Positions 2,087-58,227 of a stretch of 64,000 nucleotides of DNA are shown here, one piece after another (position 1 is the first letter of the stretch; every line of letters begins with the position of its first letter). The stretch comes from an uncultured Porphyromonadaceae bacterium. Its GTDB lineage: Bacteria > Bacteroidota > Bacteroidia > Bacteroidales > Muribaculaceae. The stretch lies in NCBI GenBank assembly GCA_947573485.1, contig CANPGB010000004.1, positions 62,001 through 126,000 of the forward strand, read 5' to 3'. A program made the translations under genes and the position numbers. The notes beneath the pieces are model-generated. The model did no database searches and was not told the DNA's origin. It saw only the letters and a list, made by a program, of their open reading frames with translations.

Positions 2087-2157
2087 TTCCGGAATCATAA
2101 TTCTTTCGGTTCCTTACTGTGCAGTAATTAAGGAAATAAGCCTTGTGCTCACCCCTT

Positions 2158-2250
2158 CCCCCGGAGGGGGTAAAGCTGGTTAACCGGGGGTGCATGTCAC
2201 CCCCGGCAGAGGGCCTGCGGAGGCCATGCCGTGCCGGAGGTACAGTACCG
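2158..2250 (+). repeat. Multi-hairpin repeat element, copy A (H1-linker-H2-H3-H4)
   Basis: CCCCC-GGA-GGGGG; TAAAGCTGGTTAA; CCGGGGGTG-CATGT-CACCCCCGG; GGCCT-GCGG-AGGCC; GTGCC-GGA-GGTAC; related in inverted orientation to copies at 56.5-57.1 kb. Confidence 0.75.
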
Positions 2251-6475: not shown

Positions 6476-6484
6476 AGCGGCCAC

Positions 6485-6711
6485 CTTTGAAGTTGTGCGA
6501 GGGCGGAAAGCCCGAGCCCTGCGCCACATAATTTGTTCATGCAAGGTGGCTTCAGCCACCGCATCAGCACCCACGCAAGAGCAGGCTGCTTTGAAGTTGT
6601 GCGAGGGCGGAAAGCCCGAGCCCCGCGCCACATAATTTGTTTAGGCAAGGTGGCTTCAGCCACCGCATCAGCCTTACCCCTTTGGAGTTGTGCGAGGGCG
6701 GAAAGCCCGAG
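6485..6711 (+). repeat. Three direct copies of the GTTGTGCGAGGGCGGAAAGCCCGAG repeat; two carry a GGTGGC-TTCA-GCCACC hairpin module
   Basis: Copies start at 6492, 6596, 6687; hairpins at 6545-6560 and 6649-6664; shared GCGCCACATAATTTGTT spacer. Confidence 0.9.
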
Positions 6712-7623: not shown

Positions 7624-9012
7624 TCAACGGCCTCCGCCGAGAGCCTGGTAGAGGGTGATTACCGAACGGGCGCGGTTGAGCTCTGTGGTAATCTGGCTTA
7701 TCTGGGCGTTGAGCAGACCTTGCTGTGCGGTGAGCACTTCGAGGTAGCTTGTTGAGCCGGTTGAGTAGAGCATGAGGTCCTGGGTGTATTCCACCGACTT
7801 CTCGAGGTTTGCGATCTGGTCGATGAGGAGTGCGGATTTCTCTTTGCTCTTTGCGTATACTGTGAGTGCGTCGTTGACTTCGGCTGCTGCGTTGAGGAGC
7901 GAGTACTCGAAGTTGTTCATTGCCTGTTTCTGCTGAGCTTTTGAGGCCTGCAGGCGTGCAATGTTCTGGCCGCGTGAGAAGAGGGGTGCCACGAGGGAGC
8001 CTGCGAGCTGGTAGAACCAGTCGCCGGGGTTCTTGATAAATGAGCCGAGGAGGTTGGTGAAACCGCCGTTGACGCTTATTGTGAGGCCGGGGTAGAAGGC
8101 TGCGCGGGCGCTTGCGGTGGCGTAGTAGGCTGCTGCGAGGTCTTGCTCGGCGGCGGCTACGTCGGGACGGGCGGCGAGCTCAGCCATGGGGATTCCGGCG
8201 CGGAGCACCTCGGGTGTTACGAGGTCAACGCGGTCGGTAACGTCCCACTCCTGGGGCAGGGTGTTCTGCAGGAGCGACATGGTGTTGTTGAGCTGGTCGA
8301 GCGACATCTCAAGGTCGGTAATCGACGCGAGGATGCTGTAGTAGTTGGCCGCCGACTGCACTACGGCTGCTTCGGTCACGCCGCGGCCGCCTTCTTTAAG
8401 GTCGCGCATGGTCTGCACGGTTTCTTTCCAAAGGGCGGCGGTGTTGCGCGAGAGGTTGAGCTGCTGGCGCACTGCTGCGATAGCGTAGTAGGTGTTTGCG
8501 ACACCGGCAATAATCTGGCTGCGCACTGCCTGGCCGTAGGCCTCGCTCTTGAGGAGGGCTGCTTTGGCTCCGCGCTTGCTGTTGAGGATTTTGCCGAAGA
8601 TGTCGATTTCCCAGCTGAGCTGTGCGGGCAGGGAGTAGGTCCAGCTGAGGTCGCTGCCTGCGTAAGAGGCTCCCGCCCCGTTGGGGGCGAGGGCGAGGGA
8701 GGGCAGGTAGCTGAGTTTGGCACCGCGGAGGTTTGCCTGAGCTATCTCAACGTTGAGTTGGGCGTTGCGCAGGTTGGTGTTGTTTGCCAGTGCCGACTCG
8801 ATGAGTGCGGCGAGCTTGGGGTCGGTGAACACTTTCTGCCACGAGAGGTTGCCGAAGGCTGCCGAGTCGACGGGCTGCTCAATGGCCTCGGCGTATGCCT
8901 TTGTGAGGGGCGTCGAGGTTGGTGTCTCGTATTTTTTATAGATGCCGCAACTGCCGAGGAAGCATATTGCCGCTACAGCGACGGCGGTGCGTGCGAAATA
9001 TATTGTTTTCAT
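7624..9012 (-). CDS. Outer membrane efflux lipoprotein (OprM/TolC family)
   Basis: Lipoprotein signal FLGSCGIYKKYETP; NodT/OprM-like repeats. Confidence 0.9.
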   Translation of the reverse strand: MKTIYFARTAVAVAAICFLGSCGIYKKYETPTSTPLTKAYAEAIEQPVDSAAFGNLSWQKVFTDPKLAALIESALANNTNLRNAQLNVEIAQANLRGAKLSYLPSLALAPNGAGASYAGSDLSWTYSLPAQLSWEIDIFGKILNSKRGAKAALLKSEAYGQAVRSQIIAGVANTYYAIAAVRQQLNLSRNTAALWKETVQTMRDLKEGGRGVTEAAVVQSAANYYSILASITDLEMSLDQLNNTMSLLQNTLPQEWDVTDRVDLVTPEVLRAGIPMAELAARPDVAAAEQDLAAAYYATASARAAFYPGLTISVNGGFTNLLGSFIKNPGDWFYQLAGSLVAPLFSRGQNIARLQASKAQQKQAMNNFEYSLLNAAAEVNDALTVYAKSKEKSALLIDQIANLEKSVEYTQDLMLYSTGSTSYLEVLTAQQGLLNAQISQITTELNRARSVITLYQALGGGR

Positions 9013-9027
9013 ATATCGTTGCGTGGT

Positions 9028-12000
9028 TTATTTGGCGTATTGCTCAATTTCTTTCTCGATAGTGCCGCCGCGCTCTTCGTTCTGCCACTGTATGGGCTTG
9101 ATCTTTTCCTGGAGAATCTGGAATACGACGAAGAGTGCCGGTACGATGAATATCTGGCATATCATACCCAGGAGCATGCCGCCTACAGAGCCTGCGCCGA
9201 GGGCGCGGTTACCGTTTGCACCTACGCCGGTGGAGAACATCATAGGCAGAAGGCCGATGACCATGGCCAGCGAGGTCATAAGGATAGGACGGAGACGTGC
9301 ACCGGCGCCTGCGATTGCGGCGTTGAAGATGCTCATGCCTGTGTGTCGGCGCTCGAGGGCGAACTCTACGATAAGAATTGCGTTCTTGGCCAATAGACCG
9401 ATGAGCATGATGAGGGCAATCTGCAGGTAGATGTTATTGGAGATGCCGAGCATCTGTGCGAAGATGAATGAGCCTGCAAGGCCGAAGGGTATCGAGAGGA
9501 TAACGGCGAAGGGAAGCATGTAGCTTTCGTACTGTGCCGAGAGGAGCAGGTATACGAAGAGGAGGCAGAGGGCGAAGATAGTGGCTGTTGTGCCGCTGCT
9601 GCCGCTGCCGGCTTCCTCGCGGGTCATACCGGCGTACTCGTAGCCGTAGCCCTGGGGGAGGGTCTGGGCGGCCACGCGCTCGATGGCTGCAAGTGCCTCG
9701 CCCGATGAGAAGCCGGGCTTAGGTGTACCGGTCACGGATATCGAGGTGAACATGTTGAAGCGGTTCATGAGGTCGGGGCCGTAGACGCGGGTGAGCTTGA
9801 CGTAGTTGGAAATGGGGGCCATTTCGTTGCCGTTGCGCACCTTGATGCTGTTGAGGGTTTCCATGTCGACACGCGACTCGGGGTTGGCCTGCATCATCAC
9901 TCGGTAGATTTTACCGAAGCGGTTGAAGTTAGATACGTACATACCGCCGTAGTATCCCTGGAGGGTTGAGAGTATGGTCGAGGGGCTGATGCCGGCGGTT
10001 TTGGCCTTGGCGGCATCAATGTCGATCATGTACTGGGGGAATGTGGGGTTGAAGGTGGTGTATGCGGCCTGGATTTCGGGCTGTTGGTTGAGCTGAGCGA
10101 GGAAGCCCTGCACGACGCCGAAGAACTGGTTGATGTCGCCGCCGGTGCGGTCCTGCATCTTCATCTCGAAACCGTTGGTTGTCGAATAACCCGTAATCAT
10201 AGGGGGGGCGAAAATCATCACGCGACCGTCGCGCACGTATTGTGCGGTGAGGGCGTAAAGCTGCTGGATGATAGCTTCGGAGCTCTGGCTCTTGTCGCGC
10301 TCGCTCCAGTCTTTAAGCTTGATGATGAAGGCGCCGTATGTGGGGCCCTGGCCGGCGATGAAGCTGTAGCCGTTGATTGCCTGGCGGATGCGGATGCCGG
10401 GGATTGTGGCGCAGAGTGAGTCGACCTGGTTGATGACTTCCTGGGTGCGCTCCTGCGATGAGCCTGCGGGCATGTCGATCATTGCGAAAATCACACCTGT
10501 ATCTTCGCTGGGCACGAGTGCGCTCGGGGTAGTGCGCATGAGCCATACGAGCACGACTATCGAAACGACAACGGTGGCGAAGGAGGTGACTTTGTGGCGT
10601 GCAAACCAGCTTGCGAGCTTCTTGTAGCCCGAGAGGAGTTTGCCGAAGTTCTTCTCGAATGAACGGTGGAAGCGCTTGCCGAAGAGGCCGAGCACTGCAA
10701 TTATGGCAACGGCCCATGCCACGCAGCTGAGGGCTACGTTGTGGAAGCTGTACCAGCCGAGCACCATGAAGGTGATGGTGGCGATGAGGAGTATGAAGGT
10801 GATGAGCGGGTGGATGTCGAGAGCGAAGGCGCGTTTGTAGCGCTTGCCCATGGCTTCGCTTGCGGCTTTATAAGCTTCGCCCATGCGTTTGCCAAGGGGT
10901 TTGTCGGCTTCTCCCTCGGCTTTGTGGGGCTTGAGGAAGATTGCGCAGAGGGCAGGCGAGAGGGTGAGTGCGTTGATAGCCGAGAAGGCAATGGCGATAG
11001 CCATGGTGAGACCGAACTGGCGGTAGAACACACCTGCAGTGCCGGGCATGAACGACACGGGGATGAACACGAGCATCATGACGAGGGTAATCGACACGAG
11101 CGCTCCGGCAATCTCAGCCATGGCGTCGATAGAGGCGCGGCGTGCCGAGGTATAGCCCTGGTCGAGCTTGGCGTGCACGGCCTCGACCACCACAATGGCG
11201 TCGTCGACCACAATGGCAATGGCCAAGACGAGTGCCGAGAGGGTGATGAGGTTCACCGAGAAGCCGATGAGGTTCATCACGAAGAAGGTACCGATAAGGG
11301 CCACGGGGATTGCTATGGCGGGGATAATGGTGGAGCGCATGTCCTGAAGGAACACATACACCACGAAGAACACAAGGATGAATGCCTCGATTAGGGTGTG
11401 GATCACGTTGTTGATCGAGGCGTAGAGGAAGTCGTTGTTGTTCATAGGAATCTCGAAGTCGAGACCCTGGGGAAGGTCGGCCTTGAGGCGGTCGACGAGT
11501 GCGAGACAGTTGTTGATAATCTGTGTTGCGTTGGAGCCCGGTGTCTGGAACACCATTGCCACGCTACCTGTCTGGGCGTTGAGGAGGTTGGAGAAGCCGT
11601 AGGTTACACGGCCGAGCTCGATGTCTGCAACGTCTTTGAGGTAGAGTACCTCGCCGTTGGAACCTGTGCGCACCACGATGTCGCCGAACTCTTCGGGTGT
11701 GGTGAGGCGGCCGCGGTAGCGGAGGGTGTACTGGAACGACTGGTTGCCCTGCTCACCGAAGGAGCCGGGGGCGGCCTCGACGTTCTGCTCGGCGAGTGCC
11801 ATGCTCACGTCGGAGGGCATGAGGTGGTACTGGGCCATGATCTCGGGCTTGAGCCATATACGCATCGAGTAGTCGGCACCGAAGGCCATCACGTCACCTA
11901 CCCCCGACACACGCTGGAGTTCGGGAATGACGTTGATTTTCATGTAGTTGTCGAGGAACTCGGCGGTGTATTCCTGGTTGGCGGTGGTGTCGACGAGAGC

Positions 12001-53499: not shown

Positions 53500-54057
53500 T
53501 CAGTCGTTAGTGAGGATAGTATGCTCTGAAATCACGCCCTTGTCATCGACAAAGAAAGAGTAGGGCGAGATAGCTTCGCCGAAGTCGAGGGGAAATTCCT
53601 CGGCGCCGAAGAATCGCATCTTGCGGCTATACTGAGCCTCGAAAACGTTGAGGTCGCGGGCATAGACCGAGGCGGCCACCACTATCACCGTTGTGTCGCT
53701 GTCGGGGTGGCTGTTGCAGAAGTCCTCGAGCCCGGCCATGAGGCGCTCCACGCAGGGGCGGCAGCCGGTGGCCGAGAAGCGCGCTATGAGGGCGCTCTTG
53801 CCCGCACCTATGGCATCGCTCAGGGAGAGCGGGTTGCCTCGGAAATCGGTGATTGTTATGGCAGAGGTGTTGAGAGGCACTCCTTCGAGAGCCTCGCTTA
53901 TGGCATCGTGCTCCATTGCTATGATGTCGAGCGCTGTAATGCTCTCTTCTTCCGCAACTTCGGGCTTGCTCTCTTTATTGGAGCAGAGCATTGAAAGCTG
54001 CCAGACGGCAATGGCAATCAGGGCTATCACCGCTACTATAAATAATGTCTTTTTCAT
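53500..54057 (-). CDS. Thioredoxin-like (TlpA/redoxin-type) membrane-anchored protein
   Basis: LIARFSATGCRPCVERLM (CxxC); N-terminal TM. Confidence 0.8.
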   Translation of the reverse strand: MKKTLFIVAVIALIAIAVWQLSMLCSNKESKPEVAEEESITALDIIAMEHDAISEALEGVPLNTSAITITDFRGNPLSLSDAIGAGKSALIARFSATGCRPCVERLMAGLEDFCNSHPDSDTTVIVVAASVYARDLNVFEAQYSRKMRFFGAEEFPLDFGEAISPYSFFVDDKGVISEHTILTND

Positions 54058-55160
54058 TCAAATGCCGATAAGGGGAAGGTGTAGAGAGCAGGGTTGGCGC
54101 CGTCGTCGTCCTTGTCGTTGATAGCTACTAAGGCAGAGTCGCCTATGATTTTGATGAAGCCTGCGGGTCTATAGCGACCGTTCTCGCCATTGAGGGTTAT
54201 TAGGCTTGTTTTGCCTGTCTTTTCGTCGAACATGCCGAAGCCTATTTCAGGAGACGCGCTTGCAAAAGAGAAATAAATGCGGTCGCCTACGCTCTGGAAG
54301 TAGCGGAGCATTGAGAGGTAAGGAATATCTTTTCCTTCTGCGAAAGCTGTAGCTCGTTCATCAAGATGTAGGAGATTTTGCTTGTCGGCGGGGAGGGAGT
54401 GTGAGCCGAAATCAAAAGCATAGAGGGGACGGACTTCGTGCGAGTCATCGATCACGAAAAGGGTATCGCGGACGCCCTCCCAGAGAAGCAGACGGTTGTG
54501 CTCGCGGTCGGTAAAACCACGGTCCATAAGGAAAGATCCTGAACGCAAACCTCTTCCGGGCACGATAGTTGCTTCTGCATCGGTTGGGTAGCGTGTATAG
54601 GAGGGTGAGGGAGTCGGGCGACCGCCTACGTAGCCGTTTGCAATATAGTATCCGTTGCCGTCGGGGGATTCAAAAAATGTTTGTGCGCGAAGTTGTGTCG
54701 CTCCCGATTTAGGCATATCCGGGAAGGGGTTAAATTGGTCGCAAAAAGTGCCGTCAGGGAGGTAGGAGTATTGCAATTTGGTGTTGCCATCGAAAACCCT
54801 GAAAGTGTCGGCATCGAGCCAAAAACGGTTTATCATGCTGAACTCGCCCGGGCCTTCGCCACGTTTGGCAAGAGTGCCTTTGAATTTACCGGTTTGTGCG
54901 TCGAAGCGTTTGAGAAGATCTCTTGACCAAACGTAATATTCGTTGTTGTAGGGTATTGCCTCAACTATGTCGTAGATAAGTGAACTGTCGCTTGCCTCGA
55001 GAGCAACAAGAGCCGAGGGGTCGAGTTGCAAAGTTTTCATCTCGTCGTAGTCGAACTTGACGGTCTTAACGCCGCCCTCTTCAGCATGATTGCCGCAGGA
55101 GAAGAGCGCTAAAGATAGTGCCGTGGTAAGGAGGGTGAGGTTTATGTTTTTGAGTTTCAT
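54054..55160 (-). CDS. 6-bladed beta-propeller lipoprotein (paralog 1)
   Basis: LALFSCGNHAEEGGVKTVKFDYDEMKT; GEGPGEFSMI motif. Confidence 0.82.
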   Translation of the reverse strand: MKLKNINLTLLTTALSLALFSCGNHAEEGGVKTVKFDYDEMKTLQLDPSALVALEASDSSLIYDIVEAIPYNNEYYVWSRDLLKRFDAQTGKFKGTLAKRGEGPGEFSMINRFWLDADTFRVFDGNTKLQYSYLPDGTFCDQFNPFPDMPKSGATQLRAQTFFESPDGNGYYIANGYVGGRPTPSPSYTRYPTDAEATIVPGRGLRSGSFLMDRGFTDREHNRLLLWEGVRDTLFVIDDSHEVRPLYAFDFGSHSLPADKQNLLHLDERATAFAEGKDIPYLSMLRYFQSVGDRIYFSFASASPEIGFGMFDEKTGKTSLITLNGENGRYRPAGFIKIIGDSALVAINDKDDDGANPALYTFPLSAFE

Positions 55161-55198
55161 AGGGGTAGAATATTATTTCGATGTCAGGGAGGTCGTTT

Positions 55199-56305
55199 TC
55201 ATTCAAACGCCGTTAAGGGGAAGGTGTAGAGGGCGGGGTTGGCGCCGTCGTCTTCATCGTCGTGGATAGCTACTAAGGCGGAGTCGCCTATGATTTTGAT
55301 AAAGCCTGCGGGCTTATAACGACCATTCTCGCCGTTGAGGGTTATAAGGCTCGTTTTGCCCGTTTTTTCGTCGAACATGCCGAAGCCTGCACCTCTTTCG
55401 CCGATGAGGAAAGAGAAATAGATGCGGTCGCCCACGCTTTGGAAGTAGCGGAGAAAGGCGAGATAGGGTATATCTTTACCGGCTTTGACTGCTTCAGCTC
55501 GTTCGTAAAGCTCGGCGAGATTCTGCTTGTCGGCGGGTAAGGAGTGTTCGCCGAAATCAAAGGCATAGAGGGGGCGGACTTCGTGAGAGTCGTCAATCAC
55601 GAAGAGTGTGTCGCGCGCTGCTTCCCAAAGAAGCAGTCGATTGTGTTCGCGGTCGGTAAAGCCTCTATCCAAAGTATGACTGCCCGAACGCAAGCCCCTG
55701 CCCGAGACTATAGATGCTTTCGTATCGGTTGGGTAGCGGGTGTAGGCGGGGGATGGGGTAGAACGGCTTCCTATATAGCCATTTAGAATATAATAACCAT
55801 TGCCGTCGGGAGCTTCAAAAAATGTCTGAGCTGAAAGTTTCAAGCCCTCTGATTCCGGCATGTCAGGAAAAGGGGTGGATTGACCGCAGAAAGTGCCGTC
55901 GGGCAGGTAGTTATTCAGCTGTTTGGTATCGCTGTCGAAGAGCCTTAAAGTGTCGGAGTCGACCCAAATGCGGCCTATTCTGCTGAATTCGCCCGGGCCT
56001 TCGCCACGTTTGGCAAGCTCGCCTTTGTATTTACCGCTTTGCGCGTCGAAGCGTTTTAGAAAATCTCTTGACCAAACGTAATATTCGTTGTTATATGGTA
56101 TTGCCTCAATTACATCGTAGATAAGGGAACTGTCGCTTGCCTCGAGTGCAACAAGTGCTGAGGGATCGAATGGCACGGTCTTCAGCTCGTCGTAGTCGAA
56201 CTTGACGGTCTTAACGCCGCCTTCTTCGGCATGATTGCCACAGGAGAAGAGCGCTAAGGATAGTGCTGCAGAAAGGAGGGTTAGGTTTATGTTTTTTAGT
56301 TTCAT
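55199..56305 (-). CDS. 6-bladed beta-propeller lipoprotein (paralog 2)
   Basis: Start at MKLKNINLTLLSAALSLALFSCGN; highly similar to the 54054 gene. Confidence 0.82.
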   Translation of the reverse strand: MKLKNINLTLLSAALSLALFSCGNHAEEGGVKTVKFDYDELKTVPFDPSALVALEASDSSLIYDVIEAIPYNNEYYVWSRDFLKRFDAQSGKYKGELAKRGEGPGEFSRIGRIWVDSDTLRLFDSDTKQLNNYLPDGTFCGQSTPFPDMPESEGLKLSAQTFFEAPDGNGYYILNGYIGSRSTPSPAYTRYPTDTKASIVSGRGLRSGSHTLDRGFTDREHNRLLLWEAARDTLFVIDDSHEVRPLYAFDFGEHSLPADKQNLAELYERAEAVKAGKDIPYLAFLRYFQSVGDRIYFSFLIGERGAGFGMFDEKTGKTSLITLNGENGRYKPAGFIKIIGDSALVAIHDDEDDGANPALYTFPLTAFE

Positions 56306-56344
56306 AGGAGGTAGTAGTTTTTTTGTGGGAGGGACAGATAGTTC

Positions 56345-56708
56345 GAGACTCGTTTTAATCGGCGTCCATGCGGACGCCATGCACTGAGCTTTGACTATCC
56401 CCGCACGCCTACGCCTGCGGCTGCGGCGTACGGGGTTACTGGATTAATCAGCGTCCTGGCGGACGCGACTTCGCCGGTTTCCTCCGCGCGCCTATGCCTG
56501 CGGCTGCGTCCTGGCAGAGGCGCTCGGGAGGTTCGGTGGAAAGTCTTGTACCGTACCTCCGGCACGGCACACTCTATATCTGCAGTCTGCCACGGGCGGC
56601 AAGCGCCCGCGGTTAACGGGCTTCAGGCCCTCCGGGCCAGGGTGTGCGGGGGAGTCCTATCAACCGTAATGGCTTCCGCCGGGACGCGCGCCAAAATCGT
56701 AAGGTGTT
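56345..56708 (-). repeat. 364-bp hairpin-rich repeat unit 1
   Basis: GAGACTCGTTTTAATCGGCGTCCATGCGGACGCC...; H4 56553-56565, H2 56590-56612, H1 56626-56638. Confidence 0.9.
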
Positions 56709-57010
56709 GAGACTCATCTTAATCGGCGTCCATGCGGACGCCACGCACTGAGTTTGGGCTATCCCCGCACGCCTACGCCTGCGGCTTCGGCGTACGGGGT
56801 TACTGGATTAATTGGCGTCCTGGCGGACGCGACTTCGCCGATTTCCTCCGCATGCCTACGCCTGCGGCTGTGTTCTGACGGACGCGCTCAGGTGGTTCGG
56901 GCGAAGGCCTTGTACCGTACCTCCGGCACGGCACGCTTCGTATCTGCATCCAGCCACGGGCGGCAAGCGCCCGCGGTTAACGAGCTTTAGGCCCTCCGGG
57001 CCACGGTGTG
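56709..57010 (-). repeat. Hairpin-rich repeat unit 2 (direct duplicate of unit 1)
   Basis: GAGACTCATCTTAATCGGCGTCCATGCGGACGCC...; H4 56917-56929, H2 56954-56976, H1 56990-57002. Confidence 0.9.
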
Positions 57011-57042
57011 GGGCTCGGCAAGGTTTCGGTTTGGGGTATGGC

Positions 57043-57094
57043 AGCCACGGGCGGCAAGCGCCCGCGGTTAACGAGCTTCAGGCCCTCCGGGCCA
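57043..57094 (-). repeat. Third, partial copy (H1+H2 only)
   Basis: GCCACGGGCGGCAAGCGCCCGCGGTTAACGAGCTTCAGGCCCTCCGGGCC. Confidence 0.9.
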
Positions 57095-57138
57095 GGGCAT
57101 GGGGTATGTTCCTGTTTCTCTCTATGACAGATTTTTTG

Positions 57139-57146
57139 TAATTTTG
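57139..57146 (+). promoter_or_regulatory. -7 element TAATTTTG
   Basis: Upstream of GTG start 57178. Confidence 0.5.
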
Positions 57147-57177
57147 CGGCTCGAATCAGAAATTTATTGTGAGATAG

Positions 57178-58227
57178 GTGCGACTCGAGATTAGTAAGGA
57201 GCTTAATTATGTGCTGCGCGGTATGGCTATATTGGCTATCGCGATGCACAATTTCTGCCATTACAACGGTGTGGGGGAAAACGAGTTTGCTTTTTCGACC
57301 GATAATATCAATTTGCTTTTTGAGAACCTCGGAGGTAATTTGCCGGATGCTCTTTGGGCGCTGCTGTCGTTTTTCGGGCATTACGGCGTGGAGGTTTTTG
57401 TGTTTCTGAGCGGCTACGGGCTTGCCCGCAAGCATGCGTGCGGACTGCCGTCGTTCGGGACTTATATGCGTCATAACCTGCTCAAGATATGGCGGTTGAT
57501 GATTCCGGGGCTCGTGTGCTTCGCTCTTATCGACATTGCTTTTTGGGGGCATCCCCTGCATGTGGCGCGGCTGTGTGCGCAGAGTCTGTTTTTTCTGCCG
57601 CATATCAACCATGTTTATCTCGATGAGATTGATATGGGGCCCTATTGGTTTTTTGGACTGATACTTGAGTTATATATCTTCTATTATCTTGTGGCGCATC
57701 GGTCGGGAAACGGCAAGCTGTTGCTGTGGTCGCTGATTTGTCTTGCCGCGGAGGGTGTGGCCATTGCTTTTGCGGGGGCGGACTCGGATTTATTGATACA
57801 GTTGCGGCTCAATCTTTTTACTGCTATCCCTGTGTTTTGCTTGGGTATATGTCTGGGCAGGAGCGAAATAGATCTGCGTGGGCGCACGGTGCATGCCTTG
57901 GGCGCCAGCATGCTTTTGCTTGCGGTGACGCTGAGTGTGGTGCCACACCCTGCGGCATGGCTGCTGAGCTCGCTGCCGTGGCCTCTTGCAATGCTGTGGG
58001 CGGCGTTGCTGCTGCCCGCCTCGGCGGTGCGGGTGCTCGGTGGCATAGGGCGCTTGTCGGCATTTATTTTTGTTATCCACCCTTTGGTGCGCTATGCCAT
58101 ACTCTGCACAACGGTCACTCCAAAAGGGTGGGGCTGGGCTACCTTGGGCTTGTTCTTGCTGGCCTCACTGTTGCTTGCTGCGGGGCTGCGCCCGGTGGCT
58201 ATGCGCCTGCGCGGGAGGAGGGTATAA
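57178..58227 (+). CDS. Acyltransferase 3-like multi-pass membrane protein (GTG start)
   Basis: LRGMAILAIAMHNFCHY...GVEVFVFLSGYGLA. Confidence 0.82.
   Translation: MRLEISKELNYVLRGMAILAIAMHNFCHYNGVGENEFAFSTDNINLLFENLGGNLPDALWALLSFFGHYGVEVFVFLSGYGLARKHACGLPSFGTYMRHNLLKIWRLMIPGLVCFALIDIAFWGHPLHVARLCAQSLFFLPHINHVYLDEIDMGPYWFFGLILELYIFYYLVAHRSGNGKLLLWSLICLAAEGVAIAFAGADSDLLIQLRLNLFTAIPVFCLGICLGRSEIDLRGRTVHALGASMLLLAVTLSVVPHPAAWLLSSLPWPLAMLWAALLLPASAVRVLGGIGRLSAFIFVIHPLVRYAILCTTVTPKGWGWATLGLFLLASLLLAAGLRPVAMRLRGRRV

Follow-up and report, generated by a model that had tools for sequence, protein, structure and literature searches.

The hairpin array is a mosaic of two REP-type families

The window analysed here, a 64,000-nt stretch of DNA from an uncultured Muribaculaceae bacterium, contains a dense array of hairpins that fills the gap between a minus-strand gene for a lipoprotein with a six-bladed beta-propeller (55199..56305; an open reading frame matching DUF5128, Pfam PF17170, E 1e-13) and a divergent plus-strand acyltransferase gene (57178..58227; Acyl_transf_3, Pfam PF01757, E 1e-15). 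What is this array: a leader RNA that serves the propeller operon, or a cluster of REP/BIME-like repeats? A sequence-only reading of the locus had placed it in the probable 5′ region of that operon, and it ends ∼40 bp upstream of the likely propeller start codon. That start (56305) agrees with the signal peptide of a tandem paralogue; the propeller gene is tandemly duplicated within 54054-56305 of the window, at a spacing of 1145 bp and with blocks that are 75-90% identical. On the other side, a promoter-like motif (TAATTTTG) lies at 57139, before the acyltransferase gene. The only open reading frames that overlap the array are frames of 109, 211 and 393 aa, none of them convincing within it, as the same reading had noted, and the 393 aa frame corresponds to the propeller gene with its start called at an ATG too far upstream.

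The internal structure of the array was as first described. Positions 56345-56644 and 56709-57008 form a gapless direct repeat with a spacing of 364 bp and 89% identity over 300 nt, and a 63-nt piece occurs three times, at 56587, 56951 and 57042 (57042-57104), consistent with one duplication plus a partial third copy. The array is not listed by Tandem Repeats Finder. The hairpins GGCGTCC-ATGC-GGACGCC and GCGTCC-TGGC-GGACGC are present as written, as is the 11-bp stem with a single mismatch, which reads T.G on the minus and A.C on the plus strand. Minus-strand folding of 56345-57104 beats all shuffles, with z = -5.1 as DNA and -8.4 as RNA. Rfam covariance models at the gathering score gave a tRNA only in the window, and no match in the array.

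Each repeat unit consists of REP-A (unit positions 11-122), a degenerate REP-A-like stretch and REP-B (unit positions 204-305), and REP-A and REP-B each match the bacterium's own genome separately and many times. The array is a mosaic cluster of these two dispersed REP-type families, with all parts on the minus strand, and REP-type clusters are a known kind of structure. REP-A copy 1 (56355..56466; model R1, 124.1 bits, E 4e-28; aligned with 31 other genomic copies) comprises a foot (GCGTCC-GCCA-GGACGC), a GATTAATCCAGTAACC tag, the 11-bp main stem, a second foot (GGCGTCC-GCAT-GGACGCC) and GATTAA, and copy 2 lies at 56719..56830 (121.0 bits, E 2.2e-27). REP-B copy 1 (56548..56639; model R2, 104.5 bits, E 1e-23; part of the REP-B alignment) has a foot (GGCCC-GGA-GGGCC), a CGTTAACC tag, a main hairpin and a second foot (GTGCCGTGCC-GGA-GGTACGGTAC), and copy 2 lies at 56912..57003 (106.1 bits, E 4.3e-24). 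The foot, main hairpin and second foot had been described as separate members (H1, H2 and H4) of a covarying family; they do covary, but together they make up one REP-B element. Likewise, H2 and H1 had been proposed as a minimal module on the basis of the third copy, a partial REP-B (57020..57094; 60.2 bits, E 6e-13) that keeps the foot, tag and main hairpin and has lost most of the second foot. Foot, TTAACC tag and main hairpin do make up the core of REP-B, but the complete element has a second foot too. The E-values of the array copies (4e-28 to 6e-13) come from models built partly from window copies.

The remaining segments of the array appear to be degraded forms of the same elements. Between REP-B and REP-A of unit 1, 56467..56547 probably holds a degenerate REP-A-like main hairpin (GCCGCAGGCATAGGCGCGCGGAGG ...), a call that draws on the sequence and on similar flanks at C16:62.6 kb, with R1 at E ≤ 1 reporting nothing there, and comparison with unit 1 suggests a counterpart in unit 2 at 56831..56911. 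Positions 56680..56718 likely contain a foot remnant of an inverted partner REP-A (GGGACGCGCGCC) and a 24-bp REPIN spacer remnant (56695-56718), which resembles the spacer of intact inverted REP-A pairs. Outside the array, a lone REP-B is present on the plus strand (2157..2248; R2, 84.1 bits, E 9e-19). A further short repeat (GTGCGAGGGCGGAAAGCCCGAG..., which includes a GGTGGCTTCAGCCACC hairpin) occurs at 2275-2307 and 6484-6711 of the window, as three near-tandem copies ∼91-104 bp apart and one more beside the lone REP-B; it is possibly another REP-like family.

REP-A and REP-B are dispersed, structured and mostly intergenic

The two models, R1 from 32 aligned REP-A copies and R2 from 14 REP-B copies, were searched against the bacterium's own genome (2.88 Mb, 49 contigs). 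At E ≤ 1e-8 we found 82 REP-A and 31 REP-B copies, which rules out a single-locus feature and bears out the REP/BIME-like option of the sequence-only reading. Both families share one design, which reads 5′ to 3′ on one strand as foot hairpin, spacer, TAACC, GC-rich main hairpin, ∼20 nt and second foot hairpin. The tag was GTAACC in 31 of 32 REP-A copies and GTTAAC in 14 of 14 REP-B copies. The stems covary, with 99.2% (REP-A) and 93.5% (REP-B) of cells paired; the covariation score was reached by 0 of 500 shuffles in either family, and slid structures scored far lower. Mean overlap with open reading frames was 8.5% for REP-A and 16.7% for REP-B compared with 83.6% for the background, i.e. the elements are mostly intergenic, these values describing selected stretches of the genome. 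GC-rich chance palindromes combined with one local duplication could be imagined from the element GC content (∼62-67%), but the genome-wide copies, the covariation against shuffles, the folding z-scores and the exact 24-bp spacing of 13 REP-A pairs (see below) refute this and leave it practically no probability.

Both families occur in both orientations across the genome, which bears on the proposal of a structured leader RNA, i.e. a cis-regulatory element of the propeller/RND operon whose RNA fold is under selection. Such a leader would suit the 5′ location close to the likely start, the strong RNA folding and the G-U wobble kept on the minus strand, but it sits poorly with the >110 further copies, which lie in either orientation and for the most part separate unrelated genes, with the lack of an Rfam match, and with our finding no TAnnTTTG promoter on the minus strand of 56280-57220. 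The G-U polarity from which transcription in the minus direction had been argued is real (the T.G pair of the 11-bp REP-A stem recurs in 30 of 32 aligned copies from the genome); however, the wobble is not confined to one strand: it is kept in the oppositely oriented member of each inverted pair as well. Because every such pair has one member pointing the opposite way, the polarity follows the element and not a transcript. Since the families are dispersed in both orientations, we rejected a purpose-built leader RNA as the main explanation and regard it as very unlikely. A side effect of the array on the propeller operon is possible.

The mosaic in the window is not unique, as REP-A lies next to REP-B, with both in one orientation, at several other genome sites. 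REP-A copies that follow each other in direct orientation often share 22-23 bp, i.e. one foot is common to both. The assembly breaks at these arrays, given that 25 of the 82 REP-A copies are found within 400 bp of contig ends, and the real number of copies is therefore probably higher. In one REP-A (L055:1368-1478; C17:21634-21744), the main hairpin is flipped compared with every other copy, with A.C, not T.G, on the usual strand. The outer borders of the elements showed a weak trend only and no cleavage-site consensus.

Inverted REP-A copies flank IS200-like transposase genes

The own genome has four Y1_Tnp matches. Two tnpA genes of the subclass-1.2 type (at C16 and C49) each lie between inverted REP-A copies, with gaps of 487 and 488 bp. 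The C16 copy is open, and the C49 copy (L062:3130-3570) has an in-frame stop just past the catalytic tyrosine. Two C9 loci carry an internally deleted tnpA framed by inverted REP-A, with gaps of 144 and 189 bp; these deleted copies lie at L071:1660-2030 and 8450-9180, and a chain of foot-sharing REP-A follows the second. A further 14 inward REP-A pairs have a gap of 24 bp (13 pairs) or 25 bp (one pair), and no outward pairs were found among neighbouring REP-A copies in this genome. For REP-B, we saw no inward short-spacer doublets, and three outward pairs with gaps of 70-77 bp. Two other Y1 proteins (247 and 314 aa; C14:30228 and C17:47571; L064 and L065) belong to another type that comes closer to the REP transposase model, and the flanks of their genes gave no REP-A or REP-B match.

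The C16 transposase matches Y1_Tnp with E 1e-22, and scores 67 bits with the NCBIfam IS200 model (cut-off 55) and 28 bits with REP_Tyr_transpos (cut-off 80). Its motif is YIMNQKQHH, and the class 2 Y...NP motif is absent. Across an alignment of 34 relatives, D52, H53, H55, W93, Y113, H120 and H121 are invariant and Q117 is conserved in at least 90%. The predicted structure (mean pLDDT 89.8) matches TnpA of ISDra2 and IS608 (best E 5e-9). It also matches E. coli TnpA_REP in complex with a REP hairpin (4er8; E 6e-5). By signature, length and taxonomy, we assign the transposase to TnpA_Y1 subclass 1.2. The sequence-only reading had named an explanation by a known insertion element as something that would refute it; an association of this sort was found, between REP-A and tnpA, although no catalogued IS is involved.

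The link between REP-A and this transposase is strong, and the elements are presumably mobile by a single-stranded DNA route. Ordinary MITEs of an unrelated DDE-type insertion sequence also show inverted ends, internal deletions and non-autonomous copies, but the gene between the inverted ends encodes an HUH/Y1 transposase, which strongly disfavours that origin. Moreover, hairpins with a tag 5′ of the stem belong to the single-stranded DNA transposase type, and no target-site duplication was noticed at the borders in an informal look. We consider DDE-type MITEs highly improbable and retain the subclass-1.2 TnpA as the candidate mobilising enzyme. Excision, insertion and empty sites were not seen with one genome compared per species, and no acyltransferase orthologue for an empty-site comparison was found in 40 genus genomes.

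No cognate tnpA for REP-B was found in the own genome, and REP-B flanked the gene at 0 of 80 relative loci. REP-B occurs in the own genome and, more weakly, in a congener (G016), in which a subclass-1.2 gene sits between inverted R2 matches. We rejected this gene as the REP-B transposase, since its element matches REP-B over 46 nt at 76% only and has a different second foot, making it a cousin only. The best interpretation is that the own genome lacks the transposase that belongs to REP-B.

Tagged hairpin elements accompany subclass 1.2 genes in other species

TnpA_Y1 subclass 1.2 was reported mainly from Cyanobacteria and Bacteroidetes, and was listed without REPs and generally without IS200-type ends (Quentin 2018, PMC6006769). 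The hairpin search in that survey required a GT[AG]G tag at most 2 nt from the stem. Most elements here are tagged GTAA, ATAG, ATAA or TTAA and would escape such a search, so their REPs would have been missed.

A protein scan of species-level genomes yielded 519 relatives, of which 80 were kept; together with the two own loci this gave 82 loci, mostly in Bacteroidota. At 72 of the 82, the inverted similarity between upstream and downstream flanks exceeded the maximum of 60 shuffles. We also applied a strict pattern (foot hairpin, 3-17 nt, TA[AG]CC, main hairpin), which was framed after the flanks had been seen. It was present in both flanks, in inverted orientation, at 45 of 82 loci compared with 0.00 expected from shuffles, in a set where one G016 locus replaced a locus with too short a flank; the other 37 did not pass on both sides. 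These results contradict the reported lack of REPs and terminal structures in subclass 1.2. Tags at the other loci included ATAG, ATAA and GTAG, among others. The design was constant and the sequences differed by species, in Muribaculaceae, other Bacteroidales, Chryseobacterium and a planctomycete; one Chryseobacterium genome has 12 matches of its cognate element, including an inverted pair around tnpA.

The presence of REP-A also followed that of the gene within the genus. Among 37 genus genomes, REP-A was found in 6 of 6 with a close tnpA (59-100% identity) versus 3 of 31 without one (Fisher p 3.6e-5, an optimistic value as the genomes are related). One congener (G007) has 26 REP-A copies and no Y1_Tnp match, explicable by loss or incomplete assembly. 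In open-licence papers, we found no report of a Bacteroidetes or Flavobacteriia REP of this type beyond two surveys, and an earlier report is possible. On balance, we think it likely that subclass 1.2 forms REPINs and is widespread in Bacteroidota, with some examples from Planctomycetes and other groups; its REP would be a multi-hairpin element with a TA[AG] guide tag that replaces GT[AG]G. Its autonomous element would be a REPIN with the transposase gene in the spacer, and gene loss would give rise to dispersed REPINs, solo REPs and mosaic arrays.

A proposed origin of the array

We are confident that the array is a non-autonomous cluster of REP-A and REP-B between divergent genes, in which a 364-bp unit has been duplicated once and REP-A is probably recognised and mobilised by a subclass-1.2 TnpA encoded elsewhere. 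During replication, the minus-strand form of the element would fold as single-stranded DNA, its GC-rich main hairpin carrying at the base a guide-like tag, which is GTAA for REP-A and TTAA for REP-B. TnpA would bind the tagged main hairpin and cut near the feet, and the element would re-insert at other intergenic sites. Experiments on class 2 TnpA_REP showed that the tag is important for activity and that it contributes, in one system, to the choice of cleavage site (PMC8266576); by analogy, the TA[AG] tag may play this role in the elements described here.

The inward gaps fall into discrete sizes (487/488, 144/189 and 24-25 bp), and the simplest reading is that REPINs are deletion products of the tnpA-bearing pair. 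The autonomous element would then consist of two inverted REP-A copies on either side of tnpA, and gene loss would lead through internally deleted tnpA copies to REPINs with a 24-bp spacer and on to solo REPs like those in the array. Repeated insertion at one site would have built the REP-B/REP-A mosaic, which a later 364-bp duplication, by recombination or slippage, would have doubled. Any effect on the propeller operon would be secondary.

It is also conceivable that the transposase only seeded REP/BIME sites that the host now maintains, either as binding sites of nucleoid proteins or gyrase or to stabilise transcript ends. The intergenic placement and the known roles of REPs in other bacteria (PMC6006769) fit host maintenance, but 31 of 41 congeners have no R1 match at E ≤ 1e-8, which argues against an essential genus-wide role, and mobility is indicated by the internal deletions in tnpA copies and by REPIN spacers of a fixed 24 bp. 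We judge host-maintained sites to be rather improbable, and favour a mobile, non-autonomous cluster that probably has no dedicated host function. This origin would provide a transposase and a mobility route for hairpin repeats that are common in gut Bacteroidota genomes, and REP-A arrays would explain breaks in the present assembly. With the gene, deleted gene, 24-bp REPIN, solo REP and array all in one genome, the origin of REPINs from IS200-like elements is directly testable.

Comparison with known systems

The closest parallel is the REPIN/RAYT (TnpA_REP) system of Gammaproteobacteria (PMC3116915, PMC6006769), in which a small Y1 gene is likewise flanked by inverted tagged hairpins; intergenic copies are numerous there too, and there are tandem clusters as well as inverted doublets whose short spacer is fixed. 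The 24-bp REP-A pairs have the REPIN form (Bertels and Rainey 2011, PMC3116915). However, the transposase here is class 1 (IS200-like, Y...Q..HH) whereas RAYTs are class 2 (Y...NP), the tag is TA[AG] with a variable first base instead of GT[AG]G, and the REP is ∼111 nt with three hairpins instead of 20-40 nt with one. In addition, the gene here occupies the position of the REPIN spacer. The enzyme resembles TnpA_Y1 subclass 1.2 (PMC6006769) in its size (∼145-148 aa), DH[IV]H motif (DHIH here), W, Y-x-x-x-Q-x-x-H-H, C-terminal tail, low copy number and occurrence in Bacteroidota, but in contrast to the subclass as published its genes are REP-flanked.

As in IS200/IS605 elements, which supply the nearest solved transposase structures (ISDra2, IS608), hairpin ends on single-stranded DNA are involved; unlike in those elements, the ends are inverted multi-hairpin elements that reach high copy number without the gene. 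E. coli BIMEs are similar mosaic clusters of REP motifs between genes, but their sequences, tag and transposase class differ, and here two REP families share one cluster. The GTAG/CGTC-tagged REPs (Di Nocera 2013, PMC3733652) are also short tagged palindromic repeats, found in many phyla, and the CGTC type includes Bacteroidetes. The CGTC REPs are 20-40 bp long with an unpaired end tag and no transposase, whereas CGTC here lies within the foot stem and a transposase is attached; we rejected membership of the CGTC family on the pairing of the tag. Compared with these systems, the novelty here lies in the class of the transposase, in the tag and in an element made of three hairpins.
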